Below, in pieces: positions 18,862 through 60,192 of a stretch of 64,000 nucleotides of DNA (position 1 is its first letter; the number at the start of each line of letters is the position of its first letter). Location of the stretch: NCBI GenBank assembly GCA_017466695.1, contig JAFTTR010000016.1:130015-194014 (forward strand), in the 5' to 3' direction. The position numbers and the translations under genes were made by a program. Source of the DNA: Alphaproteobacteria bacterium (GTDB taxonomy: Bacteria > Pseudomonadota > Alphaproteobacteria > CAAHEQ01 > UBA3637). The notes under the pieces are model-generated. The model searched no databases. It was not told where the DNA came from and saw nothing but the letters and a program-made list of their open reading frames with translations.

Positions 18862-20721
18862 ATGGCAGACGATATTCAAATTCAAAAAATGGACGGCAAA
18901 AGCCTTGATGTGACGGGCGTAAACAAGGAAAAGTTGAAAACGGTTTTTCCTGAGTGTTTTACCGAGGGTAATTTGGATATTGATAAACTATTGTCGCTTT
19001 GTGGCGAATATATTGATAATGATTTTGAAAAGTATAAATTTGAATGGAAAGGCAAATCTGAATGCTATCGGATTGCCGGTAAGCGTTCAACCGGAACACT
19101 CCGTCCTTGTCCGGAAGAGAGCGTTGATTTTGAAAATACCAATAATCTGTATATTGAAGGCGATAATTTGGAAGTTTTGAAACTTTTGCAAACAGCCTAT
19201 TATCGCAAAGTTAAGATGATTTACATTGATCCTCCGTATAACACCGGCAATGATTTTGTTTATGAAGATGATTTTAAAGACCCGATGGCAAAATATAAAG
19301 AAATTACAAGCCAAACAACAAAATCAAATCCCGAAACAATGGGCAGATATCATACCAACTGGTTGAATATGATGTATCCTCGCTTGCGTTTAGCCTCTAA
19401 CTTACTTCGTGATGATGGTGTGATTTTTATCAGCATTGATGAACGGGAAATTGATAATCTTAAGAAAGTATGTAACGAAGTGTTTGGAGAAGAAAATTTT
19501 ATAGGATCGTTTGTTTGGCGTAAAAAAGATGGAGGAGGACAAGCAAAAGAATATTTTGCTATAGAACATGAATATATTGTTGTTTATCGTAAAACAGAGC
19601 AATTATATTGGATTGATAAAACTGAAGAACGAAATATTTCACAATATAATAAAAAAGATGAACGTGGCAACTTTAAGGTTACTAAACTTGCTAAATGGGG
19701 AAATACTGCACGCCGAGAAGATAGACCCTCCATGTACTTTCCTTTAATCGCACCAGATGGAAAAGAAGCGTATCCCATCGCTCCCGATGGAAATGATGGC
19801 CGTTGGAGAGTTGGTAAAGAGAGGATGAATGAACTAAAATCTTTAGATTTGATATACTGGGATAAAAAGGGCGATAGATGGATACCATACGAAAAAGAAT
19901 ATTTTGATAATCAAGTTAAAGTTATTAAAAAAAGAAGTATTTTGTACGATGTAGCCAATACAGGAGATGGCTCTAACGTACTAACTGAAATGTTTGGTAG
20001 AAAGGATGTTTTTGAAAATCCTAAGCCACTAGAAGTAATTAGGGAATTTGTAGAGTCCTCATCAGAAAATGACGATATTGTCCTCGACTTTTTCTCAGGC
20101 TCTGCAACTACGGCTCATGCAGTTATGCAATTAAATGCTGAAGATGGAGGAAAACGTCAATTTATTATGGTGCAATTACCGGAGGTAACCGATGAAAAGT
20201 CGGAAGCATTCAAAGCCGGATATAAAAACATTTGTGAAATCGGTAAAGAACGTATCCGTCGTGCCGGTAGCAAGATTAAAGAGCAAAACGCCGATGTGGA
20301 TGTCGGATTTAAGGTTTTGAAATTGGATACATCAAACTTGGTAAAATGGGATGATACACCGGTCAGCGAAACAGAAGTGTTGAGAGAACGCTTTGACTCT
20401 GTTGTCAAAACACTTAAATTTGACCGCTCTGAATTAGATGTCGTTTATGAAGTGATGTTAAAATTGGGTATCCCTGTTACCTATAAAGTCAATTTAACAG
20501 ATATCAACGGTCGTAAAGTCTACTCCATTGGCGAAGACGGATTGATTTTGGTATGTTTGGACGGCTCTAACGGAGGTATTACACCGGAAGACATTTCGGC
20601 TATGTGTGATTTAACACCTGCCAAAATCGTTGCCGCCGAAGAAGCTTTCAAAGACGATGTCGCTCTGTCAAACGCTTACTACATCTCAAAAGACAAAGGC
20701 GTGGAAATAGAATTGTTGTAG
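18862..20721 (+). CDS. mod: Type III restriction-modification methyltransferase (Mod)
   Basis: 619 aa. It has beta-class DNA methyltransferase order: motif IV DPPYNTGN at about residue 123, then the large variable target-recognition region (about 210-390), then the SAM-binding motif I DFFSGSATTAHAV at about residue 410. This is the architecture of type III Mod N6-adenine methyltransferases, which also provide target specificity for Res. The middle of the gene is more AT-rich than its ends, as expected for an exchanged recognition domain. First gene of a four-gene run. Confidence 0.95.
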   Translation: MADDIQIQKMDGKSLDVTGVNKEKLKTVFPECFTEGNLDIDKLLSLCGEYIDNDFEKYKFEWKGKSECYRIAGKRSTGTLRPCPEESVDFENTNNLYIEGDNLEVLKLLQTAYYRKVKMIYIDPPYNTGNDFVYEDDFKDPMAKYKEITSQTTKSNPETMGRYHTNWLNMMYPRLRLASNLLRDDGVIFISIDEREIDNLKKVCNEVFGEENFIGSFVWRKKDGGGQAKEYFAIEHEYIVVYRKTEQLYWIDKTEERNISQYNKKDERGNFKVTKLAKWGNTARREDRPSMYFPLIAPDGKEAYPIAPDGNDGRWRVGKERMNELKSLDLIYWDKKGDRWIPYEKEYFDNQVKVIKKRSILYDVANTGDGSNVLTEMFGRKDVFENPKPLEVIREFVESSSENDDIVLDFFSGSATTAHAVMQLNAEDGGKRQFIMVQLPEVTDEKSEAFKAGYKNICEIGKERIRRAGSKIKEQNADVDVGFKVLKLDTSNLVKWDDTPVSETEVLRERFDSVVKTLKFDRSELDVVYEVMLKLGIPVTYKVNLTDINGRKVYSIGEDGLILVCLDGSNGGITPEDISAMCDLTPAKIVAAEEAFKDDVALSNAYYISKDKGVEIELL

Positions 20722-20732
20722 AGGTGTTGGGG

Positions 20733-21635
20733 ATGACAAAAGCAGGAACTGAGTATGAAATTTTCGTTCAAACTTTGATGCAGGCTATTATTAACTCCGA
20801 AAATCAAGGAGGACAAAAAAACATAAAAGTTCGGCATAATGAAAAAATAGCTGATAGATTTGGCATTGAGCGACAATTTGATGTTCTTTGGGATTATGAG
20901 CAAGCAGGAATAGTTTATAATACAATCATTGAATGTAAAGATTATAACACACCTGTTTCTATTGAAAAAATAGATGCATTAGTTGGAAAGTTGAAAGACT
21001 TTCCAACTGTTCGTGGCATTATTGCTACAACACAAGGATTTCAATCAGGGGCGAAGGACAAAGCAAAAAATAATGGAATTGAGATATTGTGTATTAGAAA
21101 ATCTAATGACAGTGATTGGGTTGATGAAAATGGAACACCATTAATTAAAAAGGTTGTTCTAAATATGACAATGTTATCGCCACCAGAAATAATCCAGTGC
21201 AATACTTTTATTGATGAAAAATATTTGGTGGATAACGGTATAGATGTCCACGCAGTTAATTTTTCTAATTCATTTAACGTAGATGTTTTTGTTGAGGATG
21301 TTTCCCGAAAAGAAAAATATTCCCTTTATGAGTTACAATCAAAAATTGCTGATAAAGATGACGATTATGGAATACATGAAAAAGAGTTTCTTTTTGATGA
21401 AGCATATATTTTCAATAAAGAAATCCGAGTAAAATTAAAAAAACTGAAAATAAAATATCGTTTAAATCCACCAACAACAATGACTCATGAAATAAATGCA
21501 GAAGCTTATGTCTTAGGGGTGGTGGAATACTTAAATCGTGGAGAAAAAAAGAAGGTATTTAGCACTCCCCATTCAGGTATAGTGGTAAATAATCACAAAT
21601 TATCCGAAAGGAAAATAAATGAAACTAAAATTTAA
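20733..21635 (+). CDS. Mrr-like restriction endonuclease-fold protein
   Basis: 300 aa from the ATG at 20733 (12 bases after mod, GAGG-type SD). The N-terminal ~130 residues look like an Mrr/PD-(D/E)xK domain: QFDVLWDYEQAGIVYNTI followed by IECKDYNTPVSIEKIDALVG, where E-C-K is the catalytic ExK and the D in QFDVLW the metal-binding Asp. The C-terminal half (about 130-300) is unrecognised. It overlaps res by 17 bases. Its own AT content is higher than that of mod and res. It is an additional nuclease inside a type III locus, perhaps type IV-like or a helper of the system. Confidence 0.82.
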   Translation: MTKAGTEYEIFVQTLMQAIINSENQGGQKNIKVRHNEKIADRFGIERQFDVLWDYEQAGIVYNTIIECKDYNTPVSIEKIDALVGKLKDFPTVRGIIATTQGFQSGAKDKAKNNGIEILCIRKSNDSDWVDENGTPLIKKVVLNMTMLSPPEIIQCNTFIDEKYLVDNGIDVHAVNFSNSFNVDVFVEDVSRKEKYSLYELQSKIADKDDDYGIHEKEFLFDEAYIFNKEIRVKLKKLKIKYRLNPPTTMTHEINAEAYVLGVVEYLNRGEKKKVFSTPHSGIVVNNHKLSERKINETKI

Positions 21636-24600
21636 GAAACAGGAATTTCAAGAAAAGGCAGTTAATGCTGTTGCTGATTTATTCAAAGGACAAGAAAAAG
21701 CCGGAACAACTTTTTCTATCGTTGATAATTCGGCTCAATTCAGTTTATTGCAAAATGATTTTGGTTTTGGTAACAAACTTCTGCTTGATAAAGAAACGCT
21801 TGTTTCTAATTTGAAAAATATTCAAAAAGGTCAATCTCTCCCACAAACCGATATTGAATCCGACAAAGCCTTGCCCATTTCCATTGAAATGGAAACTGGA
21901 ACCGGTAAAACCTATGTTTATACAAAAACAATTTTGGAACTCAATAAACGTTATGGTTTTACAAAATTTATCATTGTTGTGCCAAGTATTGCTATTCGTG
22001 AAGGTGTGAATAAATCTTTCCAAATAACCGAAGAACACTTTAAAAATCAATATGACAGCGTGCCTTACAGATATTTTATCTATAATTCGGCTAAACTGTC
22101 TGATGTTCGGGCTTTTGCGACTTCCAGCAACATTGAAATTATGATTATCAACATTGATGCTTTCAAAAAAGCCGAAAATATCATCAATCAAGAGCAAGAC
22201 AAGCTCAATGGCGAAACCGCTATGAGATATATTCAAGACACAAATCCGGTTGTGATTATTGATGAACCACAAAGCGTTGACAATACGCCAAAAGCAAAAG
22301 AAGCCATTGCTACCTTAAATCCTTTGTGCGTTTTGCGTTATTCTGCAACCCACAGAGAAAAGCAAAACCTTGTCTATCGTTTAACACCGGTTGATGCCTA
22401 TCAAATGGGATTGGTTAAGCAGATTTGTGTTATTTCAAACTCGGTCATCAACGATTCAAACAAACCTTATATTGCGTTAAAATCCGTTTCCAACAGCGGT
22501 GGTTTTAGTGCAAAAGTTGAAATTGATGTTGAAGGTAAAGACGGTAAAGTGTCCCGTAAAACAATAACCGTTAAGCCGGGAGATGATCTATACTTAAAAT
22601 CAGGACATCGTCAATTATACGAAGGCTATGTCGTAGCCGGTATTGATTGCACAAGCGGTTATGAGTGTATTGAATTTTCTAATGCAGAATGTTTGAATTT
22701 AGGTAAAATCATCGGTAGTGTTGATGAAAATATCATTAAACGAGCTCAGATTTATCACACTATCAAAACACATTTGGAAAAGGAAATCCGCCTGTTTGAC
22801 AAAGGAATTAAGGTATTGTCCTTGTTCTTTATTGATGAAGTTAAAAAATATCGTTTAGAGGATGGCGGACAAGGTATTTATGCCAAAATGTTTGAAGAAT
22901 GCTATAACGAGTTGATCAACAGTCCCCGTTATGCTGTTTTAAAAGAAAAGTTTAATACGGATGTTACCAAGGCTCATGACGGATATTTCTCTCAGGATAA
23001 AAAAGGTAAATATAAAGATACCAAGGGGGATACGCAGGCCGATGATGACACCTATAACACCATTATGAAAGACAAAGAAAAACTGCTGTCTTTTGAATGT
23101 CCGTTAAGGTTTATCTTCTCGCACTCCGCCCTAAAAGAAGGTTGGGATAACCCGAACGTTTTCCAAGTTTGCACTTTAATCGAGCAAAAATCGGTTTTTA
23201 CCTGTCGTCAAAAGGTTGGTCGAGGACTTCGTTTATGTGTTAATCAAGATGGCGAACGCATTGAAGATAAAGACGTCAATATCTTACATGTCATTGCGAA
23301 TGAAAGTTTTGCCGAATTTGCCGATAAACTGCAAAAAGAAATTGAAGAAGAAACCGGCGTTAAGTTTGGTGTTTTGGAAATCGGGATGTTGACGGGCTTG
23401 ACTTACGAAGAAGAAGTCAAGGTTGAAAAACAAATCTCTCAAGAAACAGCCGAAACAGTTGTTCAAGAACTGCAAAAGACTGGCATTATTGATGATTGTG
23501 GGGCGGTTAATAAAGAAGTGTCCGTTGAAGCAATTGAGCTTTCAAGTGTGCCGGAGCCTGTTAAAAAAGAAATTATTGAAACGATAAGGCAGGAAAAACC
23601 CGTAACAGTTGCTGCTCTTTCACAGACAACCTATACCGAAACAAAGGTTGAAAAAGTTTCTGTCAGCTATGAAGAAGCCGTTCAAATCATGGAAGATTTA
23701 AAAGGCACTCAGGTCATTGACAGTAAAGGTAAAATCAAAGATACCATGAAGGCAGAACTGGCCGCCGGTACTTTGAATTTAAGCGACAGATGGTCAAAGG
23801 CAAAACAACGTGCTGTTTTACAGGCCTTAAATAAAGCCGATAATAAACCAGTTATTCGGGATGCAAGCAAAGAAGTGACTGTTAAATTAAAGAAAAAAGC
23901 AATCCTTAGTCCCGAATTTATGGAATTGTGGAATAAAATCAAGCAAAAGACCACTTATCGTGTTCAATTTGATTTGGATACCTTGGTTGCAAACAGCATT
24001 AAAGAAATTAAGGAAATGCCCGAAATTGGGACGGCTCGTTTACTCAGTCAAACAGCCAGTGTTAATATTGAAAAATCAGGTGTTTCACACCAAGCAGGAA
24101 GAACATTTATTCAAGATTTAACCCGAAACTATGAAACATTGCCGGATATTTTACGCCTGATTTCCACCAAGACGCTTTTGAAACGGTCAACGGTTAATCG
24201 TATTTTACAAGAAAGTGGTCGTATGGCAGACTTTTTGAAGAATCCGCAAGAGTTTTATGAAAAAACATTGGAAATTATTGAACGCAATCGTCATAAATTG
24301 GCTATTGACGGTATTAAGTATATTAAACTCGCCGATGAAGAATACTATGTTCAAGAAATTTTTGACAGTACTGAGTTGATTGCCAACCTTGATAAGAATG
24401 CAGTTGCTGTTGAAAACAGTGTTTATGACCATGTCATTTATGATAGCGGTATTGAAAGCAAATTTGCTGTTGCCTTGGATAAAGATCCGGATGTTAAAAT
24501 GTTCTTTAAAATCCCAAGCCGATTTAAAATTGAAACACCTATCGGAACCTATAATCCGGACTGGGCAGTTTATTTGGAAAAGAACGGCGAGCAAAAACTC

Positions 24601-24762
24601 TACTTTGTGTTAGAAACCAAAGGAACGGATAATTTATTCTTGCTCAGAGAAGAAGAAAAATTGAAAATCATGTGCGGAGCCGAACACTTTAAGGCTTTGG
24701 GTGGCGTTGGTTTTTCAAAAAATCCAGTCAGAGAATGGCAAGAATTTAAGCAAACGGTGTAA
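21619..24762 (+). CDS. res: Type III restriction enzyme, helicase-nuclease subunit (Res)
   Basis: 1047 aa. Superfamily 2 motor: Walker A ETGTGKTY (Lys at about residue 97), DEPQSVD box at about 215, and a motif VI-like QKVGRGLRLCVN. The C-terminal PD-(D/E)xK nuclease contains NPDWAVYL and VLETKG (about residues 980-1002). With Mod it forms a complex that translocates or slides on DNA and cuts when two unmethylated sites meet. The gene is intact. It is followed after 3 bases by a second helicase gene. Confidence 0.95.
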   Translation: MKLKFKKQEFQEKAVNAVADLFKGQEKAGTTFSIVDNSAQFSLLQNDFGFGNKLLLDKETLVSNLKNIQKGQSLPQTDIESDKALPISIEMETGTGKTYVYTKTILELNKRYGFTKFIIVVPSIAIREGVNKSFQITEEHFKNQYDSVPYRYFIYNSAKLSDVRAFATSSNIEIMIINIDAFKKAENIINQEQDKLNGETAMRYIQDTNPVVIIDEPQSVDNTPKAKEAIATLNPLCVLRYSATHREKQNLVYRLTPVDAYQMGLVKQICVISNSVINDSNKPYIALKSVSNSGGFSAKVEIDVEGKDGKVSRKTITVKPGDDLYLKSGHRQLYEGYVVAGIDCTSGYECIEFSNAECLNLGKIIGSVDENIIKRAQIYHTIKTHLEKEIRLFDKGIKVLSLFFIDEVKKYRLEDGGQGIYAKMFEECYNELINSPRYAVLKEKFNTDVTKAHDGYFSQDKKGKYKDTKGDTQADDDTYNTIMKDKEKLLSFECPLRFIFSHSALKEGWDNPNVFQVCTLIEQKSVFTCRQKVGRGLRLCVNQDGERIEDKDVNILHVIANESFAEFADKLQKEIEEETGVKFGVLEIGMLTGLTYEEEVKVEKQISQETAETVVQELQKTGIIDDCGAVNKEVSVEAIELSSVPEPVKKEIIETIRQEKPVTVAALSQTTYTETKVEKVSVSYEEAVQIMEDLKGTQVIDSKGKIKDTMKAELAAGTLNLSDRWSKAKQRAVLQALNKADNKPVIRDASKEVTVKLKKKAILSPEFMELWNKIKQKTTYRVQFDLDTLVANSIKEIKEMPEIGTARLLSQTASVNIEKSGVSHQAGRTFIQDLTRNYETLPDILRLISTKTLLKRSTVNRILQESGRMADFLKNPQEFYEKTLEIIERNRHKLAIDGIKYIKLADEEYYVQEIFDSTELIANLDKNAVAVENSVYDHVIYDSGIESKFAVALDKDPDVKMFFKIPSRFKIETPIGTYNPDWAVYLEKNGEQKLYFVLETKGTDNLFLLREEEKLKIMCGAEHFKALGGVGFSKNPVREWQEFKQTV

Positions 24763-24765
24763 ACA

Positions 24766-27393
24766 ATGAGTGGGGCTTCACGTTTTCAATCCTCGTTTGA
24801 AGCGGTTTGGACGGCAAGATGTTTAGCCGGTCTTGTTGATGATGAAAATTTAGTGCCTGCATTTGCCTCTGCTAACATTAAGATTTTGCCATATCAAATA
24901 GCGGCGGCCCGTTTTGCTTTGCGATCTGCAAACTTAAAAGGCTGTATTTTATGTGATGAAGGCAGTCTTGGTAAAACTTATGAGGCTTTGTTGGTTGTAT
25001 CGCAACGTTGGTATGAAGGTAAAGAACGGATTTTAATCGTTTTGCCCCAAAACCTTAAAAGTCAATGGCAAGAAAAATTAACCAAAGAGTTTACTTTACC
25101 GCTAACCGATTGGAACGAATATACGCAAGAGACCAAAGGCCTGTGTCTGATGACGTATGATGAAGTCATTAAAAATGAAGAAAAAGTCGGCCAAATTGTT
25201 TGGGATTTAGCTGTTTTTGATGAGGCAGACTTTCTATTTAAACCGGACAACAAGTCAGTTGCCACGATTAAAAAAGCGGTTGGCAATGCATTTAAATTAC
25301 TTTTAACTCCGACCCCCATTACATTAAGCATCATGGATATTTATGGACTTATCCATTTTATTGATGAAACTTTGTTGCCCGATGCTGACAGTTTTTATAA
25401 AAGATATTTTAGAAAGCCCGAAAACTATCCTGAACTTTCATCGTGGGTATCTAAGTTTGCGTTTAGAACTTTAAAAAGACAGGTTGAACCTTATGTTAAT
25501 TTTACCAAACGTTTGCCGGTTGTTCTAAATTACACGCCACAAGATGACGAGAAAAAGCTCTATGATTTAACCGAAAAATATTTGGCTCTTGATAACAAAA
25601 CTGCTTATCCGCAAATGGATAATTATCAGTTAGCATTACAGTTTTATAGAACTCTTTCTTCCTCTCCTCAGGCTTTTGCGAATATGCTGTCGGCTCCGAT
25701 TGAACGAGCTTCATCAGATGAACGCATTATTTTACAGACAATGCAAAAAATGGCTTTAGATGTTTCCGTTTCGGCTAAAATGGAAGAATTATTAAAGGCA
25801 CTAAAAACAACATTTACGCATTTAAAATCACGCAAAGAAGTGCAAAAAGCCATCATTTTTGTTGATAATCTGACCACTTTATCCGTTTTATCAGAGTTAT
25901 TAAAGGAACATTATTCGATTATAAAACACACAGATGATAATGCTTTGAACATTTTTAGAGAAGATAAAAATATTCAAATTCTCATCACAAACGATGCAAC
26001 TGCCAAAGGCTTAGACATAGAATATTGCCCCATTGTCGTGAACTATGATTTACTTTATAATGCCGTTGAAATGGAACAACGAATTTGTCGTTGCCACCGC
26101 CAAGGACAACAATCCGATGTGTTGGTTATCAATTTGCTCAGTCAGGAAAATATGTCTGATGTGCGTATTTTGGAATTGATTAACAAACGAACTTTACAAT
26201 TTCAGGGTATTTTCGGCATGTCGGACGATATTGTCGGCCATTTTGATGAAACTTTGGAGGCTGTTTTACAAAAACGCCGAACCTTGCCCGATATTCAAAG
26301 GGATTTTGCACAGAATTTAGAGATAAATAAAGATGCCAACGCACAAGTTGTTTCGGATGCCGAAAGTGTTTTATTTACGACATTTACAAAAGATGTAGCC
26401 GAAAAAGTACAAGTTTCACCGCAGTATATTCAAGAACAGGCCGAATTCATCAATCGGGACTTGTGGGAAGTTGTAAAGTTTTATTTTGAAAAGCATCATC
26501 CTCAATATATTATTGATGACATCAATCAAACATTAACTTTACCGGATAATTGTGAACAACCGCATATGTTCTATTATTGGACTGGGACGAGAAACAGCCC
26601 TTATATAGGAAAACGTCAGTATGGTATGGCCAAAGATTTTAAACCGGTAAGCGGAAGAATTACCTTAACTTCTATTTTAGCCAAGGGAATTTTTAGTGAA
26701 ATTGAATGTGCTACAGAGGGTGAAATAAACCTTGAAATAGGTACTGAACCTTGCCAAATTAGTATGTACAATGTTGAATTACGCCGAAAGGGAAAGTTTC
26801 TTAAAAGTTATGATGTTTTAACCGGCAAAACAGAAGATGACAAGATTTTAACCCAAGAAGAATGTGTCAAAATTTTATCACAGCCAATTAAATCTGTTGA
26901 AAATAAGGATAGAGAACGGTCTTATTGGCTTGCAAACAGTTCGTTTTCTGATAGGTTACCATTAGCTTTAGAAGATGAGTTGAAAAACAACTATATCAAG
27001 CAACAAGAAAATTGTTTTAATGCTGATATTGATATTATTAAAATGCGTTCCTCTCGTCAAAAAGCCGTATTGGAACAAACTCTTGAAGCCTTGCGACAAG
27101 AAACATCAAAAATTAAGGACAGCCTCGGCAATGCCAAAGACCGCTTAGAAGAACTTAAAATTCAAAAGCAAATCAACGAAATGGAAAAACAACTCCGCAA
27201 AAAAGAAGAAGGCTTGTTTTTTGAACAAATGCGGATTGAGGCTGAGGCCGAAAAGAAAATTGAGGAATTAAAAGACACGGATAATTTAAGAGTTGATATG
27301 TATCGCCTGTTTCATGTTCAAGTATGGGGGAAAGATGGTCCTGATCCGGTTTACTCAGAGGAAAATCAAACAGGCCAAATAAGTTTTTTATAG
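24766..27393 (+). CDS. SNF2-type DEAD-box helicase linked to the type III system
   Basis: 875 aa. SF2/SNF2 motor in the first ~500 residues: a modified P-loop DEGSLGKTYEA (about 64-74), DEAD box VFDEADF (about 152), a TP-TP motif III-like LLTPTPIT, and motif VI QRICRCHRQGQ (about 438), which is close to the SNF2 form. The part from about 500 to 720 is unrecognised. A charged coiled coil follows (about 750-840, LRKKEEGLFFEQMRIEAE). It starts 3 bases after res, so it is very likely part of the same operon and defence function. No methyltransferase or nuclease domain is visible in it. Confidence 0.88.
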   Translation: MSGASRFQSSFEAVWTARCLAGLVDDENLVPAFASANIKILPYQIAAARFALRSANLKGCILCDEGSLGKTYEALLVVSQRWYEGKERILIVLPQNLKSQWQEKLTKEFTLPLTDWNEYTQETKGLCLMTYDEVIKNEEKVGQIVWDLAVFDEADFLFKPDNKSVATIKKAVGNAFKLLLTPTPITLSIMDIYGLIHFIDETLLPDADSFYKRYFRKPENYPELSSWVSKFAFRTLKRQVEPYVNFTKRLPVVLNYTPQDDEKKLYDLTEKYLALDNKTAYPQMDNYQLALQFYRTLSSSPQAFANMLSAPIERASSDERIILQTMQKMALDVSVSAKMEELLKALKTTFTHLKSRKEVQKAIIFVDNLTTLSVLSELLKEHYSIIKHTDDNALNIFREDKNIQILITNDATAKGLDIEYCPIVVNYDLLYNAVEMEQRICRCHRQGQQSDVLVINLLSQENMSDVRILELINKRTLQFQGIFGMSDDIVGHFDETLEAVLQKRRTLPDIQRDFAQNLEINKDANAQVVSDAESVLFTTFTKDVAEKVQVSPQYIQEQAEFINRDLWEVVKFYFEKHHPQYIIDDINQTLTLPDNCEQPHMFYYWTGTRNSPYIGKRQYGMAKDFKPVSGRITLTSILAKGIFSEIECATEGEINLEIGTEPCQISMYNVELRRKGKFLKSYDVLTGKTEDDKILTQEECVKILSQPIKSVENKDRERSYWLANSSFSDRLPLALEDELKNNYIKQQENCFNADIDIIKMRSSRQKAVLEQTLEALRQETSKIKDSLGNAKDRLEELKIQKQINEMEKQLRKKEEGLFFEQMRIEAEAEKKIEELKDTDNLRVDMYRLFHVQVWGKDGPDPVYSEENQTGQISFL

Positions 27394-27744: not shown

Positions 27745-29250
27745 ATGTCAGAAGAACAAGATCTTTCTTTAAGAAATATACGTTTAAATAAGTTAAAATA
27801 TTTTCAGGAAAAAGGTGTGAATCCGTATCCGCATATTTTTAAGCCCTCTTCTTCTTCGCTATCATTAAAGGAAGCCTTTAAAAATTTACCAAACGGAGAA
27901 GAAAGTAGTGCAGTTGTAAAAGTTGCCGGTAGAATTCGAGCAATGCGTAATTCTGGGATGTTTATTGATATTGATGACGGAGATGGTAAAATTCAAATCT
28001 ACACTGATATTCACTCACAAACCCCTTCTAAACAAATGTTGAAGCTATTGGATATTGGTGATATTATCGGTGTTGAAGGAACTATCAAAAGAACAAAACG
28101 AGGGGAGTTATCGGTTGTTGCTCGAGAAACTACCATGTTGTCAAAATCATTATTACCTCTACCGGAAAAATGGCACGGATTAAAAGATAAAGAGGCCTGT
28201 TATCGTCAAAGATATTTAGATATTATTGTTAATCCAAGCTCCAAAGATGTCTTGTTGAAGCGAAGCCGGGCCGTGCATGCAATTCGTGAAGTAATGTCAG
28301 AAGAAAAATTTATTGAGGTTGAAACCCCGATTTTACACCCGATTAAGTCAGGGGCTAATGCCCGTCCGTTTACGACGAAATACAATGCATTGGATGCTGA
28401 GTTTTATCTTAGAATCGCTTCAGAACTTTATTTGAAACGATTAATTGTTGGAGGTATTCCTCGAGTATTTGAAATTGCTAAAACATTTAGAAATGAAGGA
28501 ATTGATGCCTCTCATTTGCCTGAATTCACTATGCTGGATTTATATCAATCATATGCTGATTATAATGATATGATGAAATTATCTGAAAAATTATTACGTC
28601 AGACGGCTTTAGCTGCAACGGGTTCACTCGTCTTACCATGGAATAAAAAACAAATTGACTTGTCTGAATCATTTAAAAAATTGCCAATTGTACAGGCTGT
28701 TAGCGACGAATTAAACTGTGATTTTATGACAGTTTATGAGGATAGTGAAGCAGTTCGGGTTGCTAAATCACAGGGAATTCAATTAAAGGGAGATGAAAGT
28801 TGGGGAAAAGTTATCGAAGAGGTATTTAATCAACGTATTGAAGAACGCATTATTCAGCCAACGTTCGTCATGGATATTCCTCGTGATATATCTCCTTTGG
28901 CAAAAGAGCATCGCGTTAGCTCCAGACTTTCTGAAAGATTTATGTTGTTCGTAGGTGGAATGGAGTTTGGTGAAGCGTATTCAGAGCTGTCGAATCCCTT
29001 AGATCAACGAGCACGTTTCGAAGAACAGGTCGCTCATTCAAATGATCCGGAAGCGCAGCAGATGGATGAGGATTTTTTAACTGCCCTTGAGCATGGTATG
29101 CCACCAACAGGTGGAATGGGAATAGGGATTGATCGCTTGGCTATGATGTTAACGGATTCTCCTGCTATTCGAGATGTTCTAACTTTTCCAACATTAAAAA
29201 TAGCGCATAAAGCTCCTCGGTTAAAAATAGACAACCAAAATCAAAGATGA
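27745..29250 (+). CDS. lysS: Lysyl-tRNA synthetase, class II
   Basis: 501 aa, full length. The N-terminal OB-fold (VAGRIRAMRNSGMFIDIDDG) is followed by the catalytic core: motif 1 region EVETPILHPIKSGANARPF, motif 2 FEIAKTFRNEGID and motif 3 GMGIGIDRLAMML, all intact. SD AGGAGG. Many alphaproteobacteria use a class I LysRS instead, so this may be the housekeeping enzyme of an unusual lineage or an acquired second copy. A degenerate paralogue lies 3.4 kb downstream in the six-gene operon, which makes a specialised role conceivable. It has its own promoter. Confidence 0.95.
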   Translation: MSEEQDLSLRNIRLNKLKYFQEKGVNPYPHIFKPSSSSLSLKEAFKNLPNGEESSAVVKVAGRIRAMRNSGMFIDIDDGDGKIQIYTDIHSQTPSKQMLKLLDIGDIIGVEGTIKRTKRGELSVVARETTMLSKSLLPLPEKWHGLKDKEACYRQRYLDIIVNPSSKDVLLKRSRAVHAIREVMSEEKFIEVETPILHPIKSGANARPFTTKYNALDAEFYLRIASELYLKRLIVGGIPRVFEIAKTFRNEGIDASHLPEFTMLDLYQSYADYNDMMKLSEKLLRQTALAATGSLVLPWNKKQIDLSESFKKLPIVQAVSDELNCDFMTVYEDSEAVRVAKSQGIQLKGDESWGKVIEEVFNQRIEERIIQPTFVMDIPRDISPLAKEHRVSSRLSERFMLFVGGMEFGEAYSELSNPLDQRARFEEQVAHSNDPEAQQMDEDFLTALEHGMPPTGGMGIGIDRLAMMLTDSPAIRDVLTFPTLKIAHKAPRLKIDNQNQR

Positions 29251-29451: not shown

Positions 29452-30183
29452 TTATTGTGGAATAATGAATGACACTTTTTTGTTATCTTTAGATGAAAGC
29501 GAAAAAGATTTATTCGAATTATAAAAGTATGCAGAACATTCGTCAATGGTTACACCAGATAAGCCTTTTTGGGTTAAGACTTCATATATTTTCTGTTTTA
29601 ATTCTTGGGACAAACAATCGTAATGTGGAACACCAAAACCTTTGATTAGTCCCAGCCCTTTTAACAATTTGAATTTTTTGATGTCGCCATTTGTGTAATC
29701 CATATTATCATAAAACTCAAACCAACAAATCGCACCTGCACTTATTCCACATAAAACGGCCCCATTTTTGTATGCTTTTTTCAGTAAGGGGATAACTTTT
29801 TTTTTCTTCCAAACATTTAACATGTAGAGCGTATCACCACTACCCACATAAATGATGTCAGCAGTTAATATTTTATTTTTTATAGTACTGTAGGTTGGCC
29901 TACCCGAAGATAATTTTAAAAAAGTAACTCGGCAATTAAAATTGTTTTCATAATATTGTTTTATGGTGTCAATATAGCTTTGTCTGTCTCTTGTTGCAGT
30001 TCCCAAAAATAAAAGCTTTGGCCTTTTTTTATTGGGTAACTGAGATATTTTTTCATCAATGCATAAGGTTTCGATGGGGTATTTTTTGATTTTTCCGTCT
30101 GGATATACCTTTGTTCGTCCCATTTCACCGCCACCAATTGCGACAACAAACCCCATTTTAGATTGTCGCTTTTTTCTCATCAT
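29452..30183 (-). CDS. Peptidase E-like (family S51) serine peptidase
   Basis: About 243 aa from the ATG at 30183, with GGAG nine bases upstream; starts at 30198 or 30156 are also possible because the 5' end contains an imperfect 41-bp tandem duplication that repeats the sequence around the start. S51 features: FVVAIGGGEMG, a central LFLGTATRD, IIYVGSGDTLYML, the nucleophile elbow CGISAGAICWF, and GFGVPHYD. Such enzymes are cytoplasmic dipeptidases or cyanophycinase relatives acting on Asp/Arg-type substrates. It is divergent from the six-gene operon and may serve the same pathway (inference). Confidence 0.85.
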   Translation of the reverse strand: MMRKKRQSKMGFVVAIGGGEMGRTKVYPDGKIKKYPIETLCIDEKISQLPNKKRPKLLFLGTATRDRQSYIDTIKQYYENNFNCRVTFLKLSSGRPTYSTIKNKILTADIIYVGSGDTLYMLNVWKKKKVIPLLKKAYKNGAVLCGISAGAICWFEFYDNMDYTNGDIKKFKLLKGLGLIKGFGVPHYDCLSQELKQKIYEVLTQKGLSGVTIDECSAYFYNSNKSFSLSSKDNKKVSFIIPQ

Positions 30184-30226
30184 GATAACAAACTCCATTT
30201 TAGATTATTACTTTTTCTTATAATAA

Positions 30227-30337: not shown

Positions 30338-30877
30338 ATGATATTTGGTGTTTTTGGACGTTCAAATGGCAATATTTGTGAGGCTCAGATAAATGGTGGG
30401 GCTGCGATTGGTGAGGTAATTGCTAAAAGTGGAGTTGTTTTGTTAACTGGCGGATGTTGTGGTGTGCCAGAAGTAGCGGCAATAGCTGCCCGTAAAAATG
30501 GGGGATGTGTCGTTGGAGTTTCTCCAGCAATGAATCAAAAGGAACATATTGAAAGATATTATCAATCCAAAGAAATAGATATTAATATTTATACAGGTAT
30601 GGGAGATACTGGTAGGATTCCTATTAATGTCAGGTCTGTTGATGCCGCTGTTTTTGTTGGTGGCGGTTATGGTACACTAGCGGAGTTTGGGTGTGCTTGT
30701 GCAGATAAAAAAATAATAGGCGTTTTAACTGGTATTGGTGGAATCAGCGATATTATTCCCGATATTATTGATAAGTTGGGTTTTGCTCCTAAATCTAAGA
30801 TTTTTTATAGTTCAAATCCACAAGAGTTGATCAATATGCTTATCGACGAGGTTCGTAAACAATATGCACAAGATTAA
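30338..30877 (+). CDS. LOG-like (SLOG superfamily) putative nucleotide phosphoribohydrolase
   Basis: 179 aa. Rossmann-type SLOG fold with VLLTGGCCGVPEVAAIAARK and the active-site loop FVGGGYGTLAEFG, the form seen in the TIGR00725 branch rather than the plant-type PGGxGTxxE. Relatives cleave the N-glycosidic bond of nucleotide monophosphates or bind nucleotide ligands. First gene of a tightly packed operon: its 3' end overlaps the next start by 14 bases. Next to a HisG-like phosphoribosyltransferase, a role in handling a phosphoribosyl nucleotide is a reasonable inference. Confidence 0.85.
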   Translation: MIFGVFGRSNGNICEAQINGGAAIGEVIAKSGVVLLTGGCCGVPEVAAIAARKNGGCVVGVSPAMNQKEHIERYYQSKEIDINIYTGMGDTGRIPINVRSVDAAVFVGGGYGTLAEFGCACADKKIIGVLTGIGGISDIIPDIIDKLGFAPKSKIFYSSNPQELINMLIDEVRKQYAQD

Positions 30878-31517
30878 ATTTGGTATTCCCAAAGGGAGCT
30901 TGTTTGAAATCACATCGAAAATGTTGTGTGAAACTAATTTTTTTTCGTTAAATCATGATAGTTCTTTAAAAAGCTTAAATGAAAATATTATGCCTATTTT
31001 TATGAGGGCTCAGGAAATCGGTACCTTTGTTGATAAAGGTTTTTTGGATTTTGGTATTACCGGATTGGATTGGATTAAGGAAACAAAGGCCAATGTTGAG
31101 TTGTTGTTGCCGTTGATATATTCTCGTGAAACCAATCAAAAATTGAAATGGGTTGTCGCAGTTAAAGATGATGGCCCGATTCATAGTATTTTTGATTTAA
31201 ATAGACGTGTTGTTTATTCGGAATTATTAAATGTCACGCGTGATTTTTTTAAGGCTAAAGGGATCGATCCTGTTGTAAAATATTCATGGGGTGCAACCGA
31301 AACAAAAATTTTATTAGGTGCTTGTGATGGAATTGTTGATTGTATGGAGACTGGTCGTACTTTAAAAGGAAATCATCTGAAAGAAATTTTAACTATTTTT
31401 GAATCTCAACCTTTCATTGTGGTTAACAAAAAGGTTTTAAAATGTGCTGATAAAATGGATGTGATTTTATCTCTATGTGAAAAAATTAAAATGACGAATT
31501 TTTATGATAGGAAATAA
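30864..31517 (+). CDS. Short-form HisG-like ATP phosphoribosyltransferase
   Basis: 217 aa, the length of the short HisG type that lacks the C-terminal regulatory domain. N-terminal KIKFGIPKGSLFEIT and FGITGLDWIKE, and the PRPP-loop region DGIVDCMETGRTLKGNHL (about residues 155-172) match the family. HisG condenses ATP with PRPP. Short HisG enzymes normally need HisZ, a catalytically dead class II synthetase paralogue. No his genes are nearby; instead a degenerate class II (LysRS-type) paralogue sits two genes downstream. A role in histidine synthesis is therefore doubtful, and use of the reaction in a specialised pathway is more likely (inference). Confidence 0.85.
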   Translation: MHKIKFGIPKGSLFEITSKMLCETNFFSLNHDSSLKSLNENIMPIFMRAQEIGTFVDKGFLDFGITGLDWIKETKANVELLLPLIYSRETNQKLKWVVAVKDDGPIHSIFDLNRRVVYSELLNVTRDFFKAKGIDPVVKYSWGATETKILLGACDGIVDCMETGRTLKGNHLKEILTIFESQPFIVVNKKVLKCADKMDVILSLCEKIKMTNFYDRK

Positions 31518-32694
31518 AACGAAATTAAGGTGTGTTTTGATTGCTGGGGGCGTGAATCCAAACATGGTCGGTGGAGCTCCGATTTCAATATTGGCATGGG
31601 TTAAGGCTATGGGAGCTGATAAATATTGGTTAGTTTGTTCTAAAGATTCTCCACGTATAAAAAACGGTGTATCATTTGCTTCTCTTGGACATATCAGTTT
31701 TAATCCGTTATTTATGGATTTTTCAATTGGATCTACAGTTAAAAATTGGATTGATGCGTTTAAGGTTTTAAAATATGTAGCGTTTAACCATTTGGGGTTA
31801 CGCAAAAAGAAATTTCATAACACTATAAAAATAAATCATGGTCACTGGTATATTGGTGCCAATATTATTGTGGTGAGGTTTTTGTTGAAAAGTTATTTAC
31901 AAAAGCTTGATGAAGTTGGCATGGCTAAAAATAAATTAGCTCGATTTTTAGATTTGAAAACAAGAGTCTTGTTATGGATTGAAAAACTGATGTTTTCTTC
32001 AAAGAAAACATCATATATCATTGCTTTGTCTCATATTGGAGCCAATGAAGTTAAAACAATGTATCACCCAAGCGGGGATATTCGTGTTATTGAAAACGGT
32101 ATAGATAAGGATAAATTTATTTTTCAGCCAAATGTGCGAGAAAAGTTGCGTGCCAAATTTGGAATAAAAAAGAAAGATATTTGTGTATTATTCCCTGGTG
32201 GAAATATGTTAAGAAAAAATGTTAAGATTTTTTTAGCTGTTGCTAATAAAAACATACAAAAAAATATTCATTTTTTTATTGTGGCAAAAGATTCAGAAAA
32301 GGCATTGTTAGAGAAAGAACATACTTTGGACAAAGTTTCATTTTTACCCTGGACGAGTAATTTTGTAGATTATTTATCTTTTGCCGATATTATGATTTTC
32401 CCATCTATCTATGATACTGGTCCCAAAACAGTTCCCGAAGCAATAGAAACGGGTATGTATGTTATTACGACTGCCAATTGTGGTATCAGTGAAAAAATGA
32501 CGTTGTTGCATGGTCATGTCGTACATAACGTGTGTTGTGTTGATGAGTATATATCTGCATGTCAATACTTCAAAAAAATGGTTAGATTGAACAAATTTAA
32601 AAGAAGGAACGTTCCAAGCATTTGTAAAACTTGGGATGAGGTTCTTGTTGAAATTAAAAAACTGTGTACCGAAATTGAAGGGAAAATGAAATGA
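31504..32694 (+). CDS. GT4-family glycosyltransferase
   Basis: 396 aa with GT-B architecture. The N-terminal acceptor domain begins LIAGGVNPNMVGGAPISIL. The C-terminal donor domain shows VIENGIDKDKF, VLFPGGNMLRKN and the GT4 motif PSIYDTGPKTVPEAIETG (about residues 300-317, the E-x7-E-like site being altered). No signal peptide, so it is cytoplasmic or membrane-associated. It overlaps the preceding gene by 14 and the following by 4 bases. Donor sugar and acceptor are unknown. Confidence 0.88.
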   Translation: MIGNKTKLRCVLIAGGVNPNMVGGAPISILAWVKAMGADKYWLVCSKDSPRIKNGVSFASLGHISFNPLFMDFSIGSTVKNWIDAFKVLKYVAFNHLGLRKKKFHNTIKINHGHWYIGANIIVVRFLLKSYLQKLDEVGMAKNKLARFLDLKTRVLLWIEKLMFSSKKTSYIIALSHIGANEVKTMYHPSGDIRVIENGIDKDKFIFQPNVREKLRAKFGIKKKDICVLFPGGNMLRKNVKIFLAVANKNIQKNIHFFIVAKDSEKALLEKEHTLDKVSFLPWTSNFVDYLSFADIMIFPSIYDTGPKTVPEAIETGMYVITTANCGISEKMTLLHGHVVHNVCCVDEYISACQYFKKMVRLNKFKRRNVPSICKTWDEVLVEIKKLCTEIEGKMK

Positions 32695-33920
32695 TGAGTT
32701 TTTTTGTTGAATCTGAAGAATATTTTTCTACTCCTTTTAATGAACGCTCTGAAAAATATAAAGCCAATGAAGAGTCAATTTGTGGGCGGCTTATGTTTTC
32801 TCGGGGTAATTTTTTTGATATTTCCTCCGCAGATGAAAGAATACAATTGTTTGTCCCAAAGGAATTATTACACGCTGGTAAAAATGATTTAAAAATGGGC
32901 AATATTGTTAAGGTAAGTGGGGTTAGAACAAAAAGTAAAGCTGGCAAAGATATCATATCTATTCATTCATATAATATTTTATCCAGAGCTTATAGACATG
33001 TTAAGATGAATGATGAATATGCGGAGCTACATCCTTTTTTAGATGCTGTTCGCAATCTTGAAAATCAAGAAAAAATAATTCAACAAGGGCTACTAATTCA
33101 ATCTATGCAAAATTTTTTTCAAGAAAAAGGTATTATTCCCATTTATACCAGTCCAATTGAAAACATGGAGACTGGATTAACAGCTTCGGCCTTTTATCTT
33201 AAAAATGATGGTAGGATGTTGCGACGGGAATTTGAAATTCCATCAAGGGCTTATTTACTCTTTGGTCGTGATGTGTATCAGTTGGGAACAGTGTTTCGCA
33301 ACCATGGTACAACTTCGAAAAATAGAAATGATTTTTTTGTAGCTAACATTTATTTGTTTTACAAGGATATTAATGATTGTAAAAAGTTTTGTGTGGATTT
33401 TTTTAATTCTCTTCGTAAACAAGTGAATATGCAGGAATTAACTCTACCCGAAGCTGACTTTAGAAGTAGAGTAGCCGTTATAGGGGAACAGTCGGTTCGC
33501 TCACAATGGAAAGCAGTCAAGAAGATTACAGAAGAACCTATTATATATAAAGGTTTTTCTCCAGAAATGGTTCCTTTTGGTCAATTGGAAAACAATAATG
33601 AAGATCAGGTTAAAGATTTTGCATTGGTGTGGCAAGGACGTACGATTTTAAAGGCGACAGAAGAGATAACTGATTATTTCGTACAGAGAGAACGATATCG
33701 AAAGATTTATGGTGAAAATTTTAATCAAAAATTATCAGACGGAGAAAAAAGATATTTGTCTTTATTACAATATGGTATTCCTCCGTTTGTTAGCATTACT
33801 ATCAGTGTAGATTTGTTATCGCAAATGTTGCTTAGAATTCCTAATGTTAATTCTTTACGTCCAACAGTTACTCAGCGCATCTCTCAATCTCAAACTCAAG
33901 GTAGGCAGAGAGGAGATTAA
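32691..33920 (+). CDS. Degenerate class IIb aminoacyl-tRNA synthetase paralogue (LysRS-like)
   Basis: 409 aa, about 90 residues shorter than LysS. Residues ~25-100 look like the LysRS OB-fold (CGRLMFSRGNFFDISSADER, then GNIVKVSGVRTKSKAGKDII). The core aligns with LysS: FEIPSRAYLLFGRDVYQLG / TVFRNHG (motif 2, about residue 200) and LQYGIPPFVSITISVDLL (motif 3, about 369-377). Motif 3 has lost the glycines and the ATP-binding arginine (IDRL in LysS, VDLL here). Motif 2 has FRNHG in place of FRNEG. Canonical amino-acid activation is therefore unlikely. It may act as a ligand-binding or regulatory subunit, or bind a tRNA or an aminoacyl group. It is coupled to its neighbours by a 4-base overlap and a 2-base gap. 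Confidence 0.85.
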   Translation: MMSFFVESEEYFSTPFNERSEKYKANEESICGRLMFSRGNFFDISSADERIQLFVPKELLHAGKNDLKMGNIVKVSGVRTKSKAGKDIISIHSYNILSRAYRHVKMNDEYAELHPFLDAVRNLENQEKIIQQGLLIQSMQNFFQEKGIIPIYTSPIENMETGLTASAFYLKNDGRMLRREFEIPSRAYLLFGRDVYQLGTVFRNHGTTSKNRNDFFVANIYLFYKDINDCKKFCVDFFNSLRKQVNMQELTLPEADFRSRVAVIGEQSVRSQWKAVKKITEEPIIYKGFSPEMVPFGQLENNNEDQVKDFALVWQGRTILKATEEITDYFVQRERYRKIYGENFNQKLSDGEKRYLSLLQYGIPPFVSITISVDLLSQMLLRIPNVNSLRPTVTQRISQSQTQGRQRGD

Positions 33921-33922
33921 TA

Positions 33923-34858
33923 ATGGAATTTGTATATGAATCAAAGAAAGTATTATTAGGGCAATTGGCATTTAATCAAAAATATTTAAATGGAAGCAAT
34001 GGTTCTCTAAGTGTTATGATTAGAAATACACATCGGTTGGAAAAAGGGTTAATTGTTTCTAAGCGCAAAAAGATCTTTGGTGTGGATTATATTTTTGATT
34101 TGGTGGAAGCTTATTGTTATCAAATTTTAAAGTGTCCTCATAATCTTCAAATAAAGTGGACACATGATGTTTTGGAAGAATATTTTAAAAGTGTACAAAT
34201 TGAGTCTCATGAAAATATTCAAAAAGCGTATGATTTGTTTTTGAAAACACCTTACTTTTTTGGAAAAAACAAAACAAAATTTTTACCGAAACCATTGGAA
34301 AAATTTTCGTTATCTTATGATCTGTTATTGAGTTTTTTCCAATCACGCCATTGCGTGCGTTCGTATCAAAAGAAAAAAGTTCCCTTATCAACTATTAAAA
34401 AGGCGCTGAAATTAGCATTAACTTCACCCAGCGGATGTAACAGGCAACCGTTTCGGGTTATTTTTATTAATAATTCCAAAATGCTAAAATCGATGTCCTC
34501 TTTATTAATGGGGATGGAAACTTTTAGAGATGAAGTACGTTCATTGATGTTCATTATTGGGGATTTTAGTTATTTTTCGCAAGTTCGGGATAGGCATTTA
34601 ATATATGTTGATAGTGGAATGTTTTGTATGTCATTTATGATGGCTTTGGAATCTTTAGGGTTGTCTTCTTGCCCTCTTCATTGGCCATCTTTAGGAGAAC
34701 GTGATATGGTTTTAGAGGGAAAATTAAAATTAAAGCCCTTTGAACAATGTGTGTTGGCGCTGGCAATCGGCTATGCAAAAAAGGGCTGTTATGTGTTGCA
34801 CTCTCAAAGAAAACAAGTTGATGATATTTTGAGGTATAATGATGTTTGTATTGATTGA
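33923..34858 (+). CDS. Nitroreductase-family flavoprotein
   Basis: 311 aa. An N-terminal ~140-residue extension of unknown fold is followed by a nitroreductase domain: QSRHCVRSYQKKKVPLSTIK, then ALTSPSGCNRQPFRVIFI (FMN phosphate site) and LGLSSCPLHWPSLGERDMV, ending VLALAIGYAK. FMN-dependent oxidoreductases of this fold reduce nitro or enone groups, or oxidise thiazoline/oxazoline rings and peptides. They also occur in surface-polysaccharide loci near pyruvyl transferases. SD AGAGGAG precedes the ATG, two bases after the previous stop. Confidence 0.87.
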   Translation: MEFVYESKKVLLGQLAFNQKYLNGSNGSLSVMIRNTHRLEKGLIVSKRKKIFGVDYIFDLVEAYCYQILKCPHNLQIKWTHDVLEEYFKSVQIESHENIQKAYDLFLKTPYFFGKNKTKFLPKPLEKFSLSYDLLLSFFQSRHCVRSYQKKKVPLSTIKKALKLALTSPSGCNRQPFRVIFINNSKMLKSMSSLLMGMETFRDEVRSLMFIIGDFSYFSQVRDRHLIYVDSGMFCMSFMMALESLGLSSCPLHWPSLGERDMVLEGKLKLKPFEQCVLALAIGYAKKGCYVLHSQRKQVDDILRYNDVCID

Positions 34859-35981
34859 TAAAGTCAATTTTGAGAATAAAGGTGCTGAATTGATGCTTTA
34901 CGCTATTGAAGATAAGCTAAAAGAGCATTTTAAAAAAGATATTAATGTTGTATTAACGTGCGAAATTCCAGTCAATAAAAAAAAATATTTTCGTATTGCT
35001 CCAAAATCATGGGAATTTTTGGGAAGTTTTATCTTATCCAAATTGGGATATGTGAAATTAAAAGATATCACTTTGGTATTGAATGCAGCAGGTTTTTATT
35101 TTTCGGATCAATGGATTTGGGTAAAGGATTATTATGATGAAGATGTTCATCATTATGTATTGAATCAAAAAACATATTTTAGTTTATTAAAAAAATATGG
35201 TGCCAAACAAATTCTTTTACCCCAAGCTTTTGGCCCTTTTAAAAAAATTCAAGCTCTGCGAACGATTAAGGCTGTTTTTCCGTACTTTGATTTGGTTTTT
35301 ATACGGGATGATTCTTCCTGCCAATACTTGATCGAAGCCGTTGGAAAACATGAAAATATTCAACATGCTCCAGATTTTACTTCTCTTTATAAACCACCAG
35401 TGTTTGAAAAATTTAAAAATATTGCTGAAGGTGCAATTGTTATTATTGCGAATTCTAAAATGCTGATAAACGTAAAAAAAAATGAGGCAAATAATTATTT
35501 CCCATTTATGGTAAAATTAATCAAATGGGCGTTGGCAACACAAAGAAATGTTTTGTTGTTGAATCACGAAGGAAAAAGAGATGAAAATTTAATTATGGAT
35601 TTATATCGAACATGTAAAGTTGAAGGGGATAAGTTGCATATGTATCCAAATTTAGATGCACCAACTTTAAAATACATTATCGGGTTAGCATATATTGTTT
35701 TTTCATCAAGATATCATGGTGTTATTAGCGCCCTTTCACAAGAAGTGCCAACTTTATGTGTCGGATGGAGTCATAAGTATCAATCGGTATTTAATGATTA
35801 TAAGTTTGCCGAAGGTTATTTAGATACATGTGATGAAGGATTATTGTTAAAACAATTAGATTATGTATTTGATGCAAAAAATAATCAAAAAATAAGAGCT
35901 CATTTAAAAAAACAAGCTGAGGTACAAAAACAATTAACAGAACAAATGTGGCAAAAAGTTTTCGATATATTCTATAAATAG
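34839..35981 (+). CDS. Polysaccharide pyruvyl transferase-family protein
   Basis: 380 aa. Starts NFENKGAELMLYAIEDKL, has LLPQAFGPFKK and HAPDFTSLY in the centre, and the C-terminal FSSRYHGVISALSQEVPTL followed by VGWSHKYQSVF. These are the signatures of the WcaK/CsaB-type family that transfers pyruvate ketal from PEP to sugars. Other members of the fold are glycosyltransferase-like. Its start overlaps the nitroreductase gene by 20 bases (GAGG SD inside that gene). Last gene of the operon; 168 AT-rich bases without a clear terminator separate it from the prophage lysis genes. Confidence 0.9.
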   Translation: MMFVLIDKVNFENKGAELMLYAIEDKLKEHFKKDINVVLTCEIPVNKKKYFRIAPKSWEFLGSFILSKLGYVKLKDITLVLNAAGFYFSDQWIWVKDYYDEDVHHYVLNQKTYFSLLKKYGAKQILLPQAFGPFKKIQALRTIKAVFPYFDLVFIRDDSSCQYLIEAVGKHENIQHAPDFTSLYKPPVFEKFKNIAEGAIVIIANSKMLINVKKNEANNYFPFMVKLIKWALATQRNVLLLNHEGKRDENLIMDLYRTCKVEGDKLHMYPNLDAPTLKYIIGLAYIVFSSRYHGVISALSQEVPTLCVGWSHKYQSVFNDYKFAEGYLDTCDEGLLLKQLDYVFDAKNNQKIRAHLKKQAEVQKQLTEQMWQKVFDIFYK

Positions 35982-58689: not shown

Positions 58690-58735
58690 ACATTGTTGCT
58701 TGTTATACGAAATTTATCCAGTTAATTCTGCATCA
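58690..58735 (-). promoter_or_regulatory. Shared early promoter-like element, copy 3
   Basis: Minus strand: TGCAGAATTAACTGGATAAA, then ACAAGCAA. It overlaps the last codons and stop of the methyltransferase gene and lies about 75 bases before the gene starting at 58634. The -10 is less perfect (ATAAAT or the TATAAC a few bases on). Confidence 0.6.
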
Positions 58736-59970
58736 TTTTCGGTTATTTCTGCTTTATTTTCAATAAGTTGGGCTTTATTGCCGGTATATTCCTCCCAACG
58801 CCTGATGATGACGTCACAAAACTTCGGATCTAGCTCAATTAATCGGGCAGAACGACCCGTTTTTTCGCACGCAATCAGCGTCGAGCCGGAGCCTCCGAAA
58901 CCATCTAAAACGATATTCCCGATTTTAGAGCTGTTATTTATAGCTCTTTCCACCAGTTCAACCGGCTTCATTGTCGGGTGTAAGTCGTTTTTGACCGGTT
59001 TATTGTATTCCCAAACGTCTGCCTGATCCCGGTCACCACACCAATGATGTTTTTGTTCGGCATTCCAACCGTAAAGAATAGGCTCATATTGTCGCTGATA
59101 ATCGGCTCGGCCAAGGGTAAAGGTGTTTTTTTTCCAAATGATGAAGGTCGACCATTTGCCACCGGCATTGATGAACGAGTTATAAAGGGTATGCAGTTCA
59201 GATGAACTCATGCACACATAGGCGGCACCTTTACAATACATCATCATATTGGATAAGCTATCCGTCAGAAACTGAGCAAAACCTTCGCCAAGGTTATCGT
59301 TCATAATCTTTCGGCCACCGAGTGAACCGGCATGATAGCGAATGCTGTCTTTCATGGTGGAGCCATAGTTCACGTTATAAGGTGGGTCTGTGAAAATCAT
59401 CTCGGCAACATCGTCCTGCATCAGCTTTTTAACGTCATCTATCATGGTGGTATCGCCACAAATCAGACGGTGTCTGCCCAGTTGCCAAATATCGCCACGC
59501 TTTGTGACAGCTTCCTCGGGTGCTTCCGGAACTTCGTCATCATCGGTGCTACCGGACGACTTTACCTCTCCGAACAGTTGGATTTCGTTTAGTTCGTCCG
59601 GATTAAACCCAAGCAGGTTCAAATCAAAGTCTAATTCCGAGAGTTCTTCCATTTCAAGGTGGAGCATCTCTTCATCCCATCCGGCATTTAGAGCAATCTT
59701 ATTGTCGGCTATGACCAAGGCCCGGCGTTGTGTTTCGGTTAAGTGAGGCAACCTGATGACTGGAACCTCTGTCATGCCAAGACGTTGTGCGGCCATAAGG
59801 CGACCATGACCGGCGATTATAACATCATCATCTCCAATCAGGATTGGGTTTGTGAAACCGAACTCCTTAATGCTTGCCACAATTTGGGCGATTTGTTCAT
59901 CGTTATGTGTCCGAGAGTTTCGGGCATATGGGATGAGCTTTTCGGTAGGATATTTTTCATTAAATTCCAT
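58714..59970 (-). CDS. ParB-domain DNA methyltransferase
   Basis: 418 aa from the ATG at 59970 (GGAG upstream). An N-terminal ParB/sulfiredoxin-like domain (LIPYARNSRTHNDEQIAQIV, DDDVIIAGHGRLMAAQRLGM) is fused to a beta-type methyltransferase: HRLICGDTT, FTDPPYNVNYGS (motif IV) and VLDGFGGSGSTLIACE (motif I). Such fusions are common in prophages and probably modify adenine or cytosine-N4 in DNA to evade host restriction. The host island at 18.8 kb carries a type III system. A MetK-like gene lies upstream on the same strand. Confidence 0.93.
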   Translation of the reverse strand: MEFNEKYPTEKLIPYARNSRTHNDEQIAQIVASIKEFGFTNPILIGDDDVIIAGHGRLMAAQRLGMTEVPVIRLPHLTETQRRALVIADNKIALNAGWDEEMLHLEMEELSELDFDLNLLGFNPDELNEIQLFGEVKSSGSTDDDEVPEAPEEAVTKRGDIWQLGRHRLICGDTTMIDDVKKLMQDDVAEMIFTDPPYNVNYGSTMKDSIRYHAGSLGGRKIMNDNLGEGFAQFLTDSLSNMMMYCKGAAYVCMSSSELHTLYNSFINAGGKWSTFIIWKKNTFTLGRADYQRQYEPILYGWNAEQKHHWCGDRDQADVWEYNKPVKNDLHPTMKPVELVERAINNSSKIGNIVLDGFGGSGSTLIACEKTGRSARLIELDPKFCDVIIRRWEEYTGNKAQLIENKAEITENDAELTG

Positions 59971-60192
59971 GTAATTCTCCATAAAAAATGCAAAGTGACC
60001 AGCCAGATTTACAAGTGACCAGTCAGAAAAAACAAGACACCCTCAAACCCCAATAAACACAAGGGTTTCCGAGTATGGATGACCAGTAAAGAAAAAGGTG
60101 TTTTGCTAGAAAAATCGGGCGGCTTGCGTCCCCGCATACGAACAGAGTCCAGGAAGGACCCGTTGCCCCGGAGCTGTCCAAGATAGTATCTC

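Follow-up and report, generated by a model that had tools for sequence, protein, structure and literature searches.

Within the 64,000-nucleotide stretch of DNA that we analysed (the window), six genes on the plus strand (30338-35981) form a compact operon. We read it, with a probability of roughly 0.45, as an accessory operon, acquired horizontally and co-transcribed, whose function would be to decorate a surface glycan. The best-supported anchor is a pair formed by its nitroreductase and its pyruvyl transferase, which points in the direction of glycan decoration. In the proposed scheme, a GT4 enzyme would add a sugar, and the pyruvyl-transferase-family protein and the FMN nitroreductase-family protein would act as a pair on this sugar or its substituent. 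Outside histidine biosynthesis, a HisG core and a SLOG protein would synthesise or trim a precursor of the phosphoribosyl-nucleotide type. Since the fourth gene product, a paralogue of lysyl-tRNA synthetase (LysRS), cannot form lysyl-adenylate in the way an ordinary LysRS does, it would most likely be a binding or scaffold subunit. The surface glycan is the putative product, and the roles of HisG, the SLOG protein and the LysRS paralogue are proposed ones.

Operon layout and genome setting

The operon is located in a 1.60 Mb, 98.6%-complete alphaproteobacterial genome, for whose lineage a host-associated lifestyle would be our guess from its size and kinship. The open reading frames of the window bear out the earlier note, which had described six genes overlapping or separated by at most 2 bases: in gene order, overlaps of 14, 14 and 4 bp are followed by a 2-bp gap and by a last overlap of 20 bp. 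All six frames are intact, and all six products exceed a Pfam gathering score. The overlaps suggest a common function; the genes are presumably co-transcribed, and all six may belong to one pathway. Plausible ribosome-binding sites occur at some of the genes, for example GAGGAG ahead of the nitroreductase gene, and a promoter and terminator scan gave no signal above chance. The GC content of the individual genes (29-39%) resembles that of the window's chromosomal portion and differs from that of the right-hand prophage (about 44%).

This prophage (36664-64000, minus strand) is lambda-like, with genes for tail, tape measure, capsid E, portal and terminase. It also contains an S-adenosylmethionine synthetase gene (61150-62151) and a ParB-methylase fusion (58714-59982). 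Repeats on the palindrome TAGTATGATACTA are located at 60194-60549, possibly a phage control or origin region; the same DNA was matched near a recombinase and phage-like genes of another genome of the order (G011, locus L111). On the left side of the window, a type III restriction-modification system (methyltransferase, Mrr-type nuclease and Res subunit) is followed by an SNF2/DrmD-like helicase (together 18862-27393). Both flanking genes named in the earlier note are present, namely a divergent gene for an S51 peptidase or cyanophycinase-like protein (29452-30198, minus strand), a candidate member of the system, and a full-length lysS (27745-29250, plus strand).

The order was sampled with 43 species, all in one family. 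The pyruvyl transferase was present in one of the 43 and hisG in two (the other being G015, where it stands beside hisIE); a full-length match to the extended nitroreductase was found in this genome alone. These distributions make the operon accessory, and it was probably acquired horizontally.

None of the other genomes searched contained the six-gene combination. A search of 385 alphaproteobacterial and 398 Pseudomonadota genomes that used the LysRS paralogue as probe yielded no conserved six-gene system. Searches outside Pseudomonadota covered plasmids, phages and viral contigs, together with a single scan of genome contigs for exact peptides, in which the sole match was an ordinary his operon of Allobaculum. 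The conserved co-occurrence proposed as a check was thus not observed elsewhere for HisG, for the SLOG gene or for the LysRS paralogue; because the collections searched were limited, the rarity of the operon is a statement on those collections. Phage cargo was rejected for want of relatives in viral contigs; the matches in phages were to HisG and LysRS only, and distant (18-30% identity). An anti-phage defence system was rejected as well, as neither the six genes nor the S51 gene had a match in PADLOC-DB.

The nitroreductase and pyruvyl transferase pair

Three genes of the operon kept the family identities first given to them, each with Pfam matches above the gathering score. The third gene (31504-32694, plus strand) encodes a GT4-type glycosyltransferase of 396 aa (PF00534, PF13692 and PF13439; Glycos_transf_1, 51 bits). 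The fifth (33923-34858, plus strand) encodes a nitroreductase-family protein of 311 aa (PF00881, 74.3 bits against a gathering score of 23.5) with an N-terminal extension of about 135 residues, which also occurs in relatives from polysaccharide loci. The sixth (34839-35981, plus strand) encodes a polysaccharide pyruvyl transferase family protein of 380 aa (PF04230, 93.1 against 25.3); its score is under the CsaB equivalog cut-off (57.7 against 213.1).

We compared plasmid loci that harbor a related nitroreductase. A pyruvyl transferase was found in 9 of 15 such loci, mostly among polysaccharide genes; this counts, inside the fetched stretch, genes directly next to the nitroreductase gene, genes separated from it by at least one other gene, and fusions. 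The Paracoccus, Gemmobacter and Acuticoccus loci were picked because their annotation named a pyruvyl transferase, so that the choice was partly guided by annotation and the 9 of 15 should not be read as an unbiased rate; among the six of these loci that were taken later and with less selection, three had a pyruvyl transferase. The two genes are adjacent in E. coli p30COLEC-2, Acuticoccus and Pseudorhodobacter, lie within one polysaccharide locus in L. plantarum and Allorhizobium, and are near each other in Novosphingobium and Enterococcus. On plasmids of Paracoccus (L050:5961-8510) and Gemmobacter (L051:3934-6549), a Pfam check identified a single fused pyruvyl transferase-nitroreductase protein. 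In Rhizobium, the nitroreductase also occurs in contexts other than polysaccharide loci.

The recurrence of this pair in polysaccharide loci of unrelated bacteria supports the surface-glycan alternative of the earlier note; the nucleotide- or lysine-derived decoration that the note envisaged is speculative. Against the glycan reading, the operon contains one glycosyltransferase, and the window proteins that were scanned revealed no flippase, polymerase or export gene nearby. In addition, none of the 15 nitroreductase plasmid loci had a gene related to HisG, to the SLOG protein, to the LysRS paralogue or to the GT4 enzyme (E 1e-4), so that for the first three of these it is this operon by itself that provides the link to a glycan.

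HisG core, SLOG protein and LysRS paralogue

The second gene (30864-31517, plus strand) encodes a HisG catalytic core of 217 aa (HisG Pfam, 122 bits) that passes the NCBIfam equivalog cut-off (TIGR00070, 125.9 bits against 75.75). It had been called a short HisG. Short it is, but its type is that of the long form (HisG_L) without the C-terminal regulatory domain: the best relatives are long forms with lengths of about 290-300 aa, at 31-36% identity and 105-138 bits, the next group of relatives scores about 65 bits or less, and classical HisG_S identity was rejected by this similarity. In the alignment, the protein ends where the regulatory domain of the long forms starts. Of 109 aligned positions at which 29 long forms show at least 93% conservation, it keeps 48, the motifs KGSL, TGLDW, SWGATExK and ETGxT among them; the PRPP-loop motif is kept as well. 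The SRNYFP segment is replaced, and the conserved Arg-containing stretch before Arg48 is gone. Asp32 aligns to a column that has Arg in 28 of the 29 long forms; the replaced segment has no Arg, only Lys36, which a second alignment sets beside the Arg column. Arg56 of the Psychrobacter HisG_S, which is positioned on the pyrophosphate with the help of HisZ (PMC9734150), probably corresponds to the Asp32 column, as judged from an alignment of motifs and not from a structure. In relatives, Arg or Lys aligns with this leaving-group Arg.

It had been anticipated that this gene might be the only hisG of the genome and serve histidine synthesis. The first part held, since the operon copy is the sole hisG; the second did not. 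Family searches of the genome detected no HisD, a sub-threshold match alone for HisA/HisF (21.8 bits against a cut-off of 23.6), and a HisRS-like match alone for HisZ (194.5 against 271.65). With HisD absent and neither HisA/HisF nor HisZ above the cut-off, this HisG cannot feed histidine synthesis, and a histidine operon was rejected on the same grounds.

The first gene (30338-30877, plus strand) encodes a protein of 179 aa that had been named LOG. Its membership in the SLOG superfamily was upheld, whereas LOG proper was not: it belongs to SLOG cluster 4 (LDcluster4, TIGR00725-like; PF18306, 119 bits) and falls under the LOG cut-offs (TIGR00730, 34.7 bits against 96.35; CtkRMPhLog, 25.4 against 300). 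The closest solved structures include 6y01 and the Moco carrier protein 2iz5. The protein retains GGGYGTLAE and an Arg that match in position the PGGxGTxxE motif and the Arg of LOG, so that a hydrolase activity is possible.

These two genes bear on a somewhat unlikely alternative, in which the product is a modified nucleotide or a small natural product of the nucleoside type. Here the HisG core would join a phosphoribosyl group to an adenine nucleotide, the SLOG protein would cleave the glycosidic bond, and the GT4 enzyme, nitroreductase and pyruvyl transferase would tailor the product. Such a joining has been proposed for PenA, a HisG-like key enzyme of pentostatin biosynthesis (PMC12648386), which provides, by analogy, a precedent for HisG outside histidine synthesis. 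The lack of a histidine role for the operon HisG and the Arg and Glu at LOG-like positions of the SLOG protein are in agreement with this alternative. However, the operon has no other pentostatin-type genes and no transporter gene, and the pair that recurs in polysaccharide loci accounts for two of its six genes.

The flanking lysS, an accessory gene and conceivably one for self-resistance, does not help the nucleoside alternative either. The genome has two complete LysRS genes, this one and a copy at C30:73145, which are 53% identical; a comparison of residues indicated that the flanking lysS retains the usual catalytic ones. Within the order, only G011 has a relative as close as 70%. That extra lysS is bordered by other genes, with a recombinase farther downstream; no operon gene matched the fetched surrounding stretch, and neither HisG nor the pyruvyl transferase was found in G011. 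Self-resistance was rejected because the 70% copy in this only other genome is unlinked to operon genes and G011 is without these two.

The fourth gene (32691-33920, plus strand) encodes a shortened LysRS paralogue of 409 aa with an OB domain and a class II core (tRNA-synt_2, 57.5 bits), 20-24% identical to true LysRS. The earlier description of it as dead was confirmed residue by residue: the motif-3 Arg is replaced by Leu375, the motif-2 Glu and His by His205 and Asn211, and the two metal-binding Glu by Ala and Thr, at positions whose roles are those of E. coli LysRS. With these residues lost, the protein cannot be an ordinary LysRS. A low-confidence AlphaFold model (pLDDT 61) confirms a LysRS-type fold and nothing more.

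HisZ, which is a paralogue of HisRS, has no adenylation activity and activates HisG_S (PMC9437257, PMC9734150); it offers by analogy a precedent for a dead class II synthetase partnering HisG (PMC9437257). The LysRS paralogue might therefore activate or regulate the HisG core in the manner of HisZ, in which case class II synthetases would have been recruited to ATP phosphoribosyltransferase twice independently; the operon indeed combines a dead synthetase with a HisG that is without its own regulatory domain, in a genome with no HisZ above the cut-off. We regard this as improbable: the synthetase subclass differs, the GT4 gene stands between the two genes, and no other such paralogue, nor any close relative, was detected in the 385 alphaproteobacterial and 398 Pseudomonadota genomes, or in plasmids or viral contigs. 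It is likewise improbable that the HisG core, the dead LysRS and a SLOG hydrolase together produce a decoration of phosphoribosyl or nucleoside type, to be attached to a surface glycan by the GT4 enzyme, nitroreductase and pyruvyl transferase.

The six genes may also share a promoter and not a pathway, a remnant of nitroreductase, pyruvyl transferase and glycosyltransferase having been joined by a decaying or repurposed HisG and LysRS. The missing catalytic residues of the LysRS paralogue and the domain and conserved Arg segment lost from HisG would fit such a patchwork, as would the variable stretch, with its type III restriction system and prophage, in which the operon is located, and the failure to find conserved co-occurrence in the collections searched. 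Decay is at odds with six intact frames that overlap or nearly touch, with a HisG that scores above the TIGR00070 cut-off and keeps its PRPP-loop motif, and with an OB domain and core that span the full LysRS paralogue without a stop. We consider the patchwork unlikely and retain glycan decoration as the preferred reading.

Comparison with known systems

If the six genes form one pathway, the operon would represent rare HisG chemistry outside histidine synthesis, in a glycan context unreported in the literature searched, and would add one more outcome to those seen for dead LysRS paralogues. No paper combining these gene families was found in that literature, which also does not describe the nitroreductase and pyruvyl transferase pair, recurrent as it is across unrelated bacteria. 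The operon provides a compact setting for the study of this pair.

With loci of the EPS or O-antigen type (p30COLEC-2, Acuticoccus plasmid), the operon shares an extended nitroreductase gene followed by PS_pyruv_trans, with a glycosyltransferase gene nearby. Most of those loci have several glycosyltransferases and a gene for a flippase or for ABC export, whereas HisG, the SLOG protein and the LysRS paralogue are found in this operon and in none of those loci. Compared to LOG, the SLOG protein shares the superfamily and GGGYGTLAE with a preceding Arg, but it is a cluster 4 member, nearer in sequence to the Moco carrier protein and below the LOG cut-offs. The operon HisG shares with HisG_L the catalytic core at 32-36% identity, its four motifs and a score above the TIGR00070 cut-off; it differs in having no C-terminal regulatory domain, no Arg segment before Arg48 and no histidine pathway. 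PenA of the pentostatin cluster is likened to it by description, not by sequence, as a HisG homologue outside histidine synthesis (PMC12648386); in contrast to that cluster, the operon holds no other pentostatin gene. As in the HisG_S/HisZ complex, a short HisG goes together, in one operon, with a paralogue of a class II synthetase that is catalytically dead. Here, however, the HisG resembles long forms most closely, and the paralogue derives from LysRS and not from HisRS.
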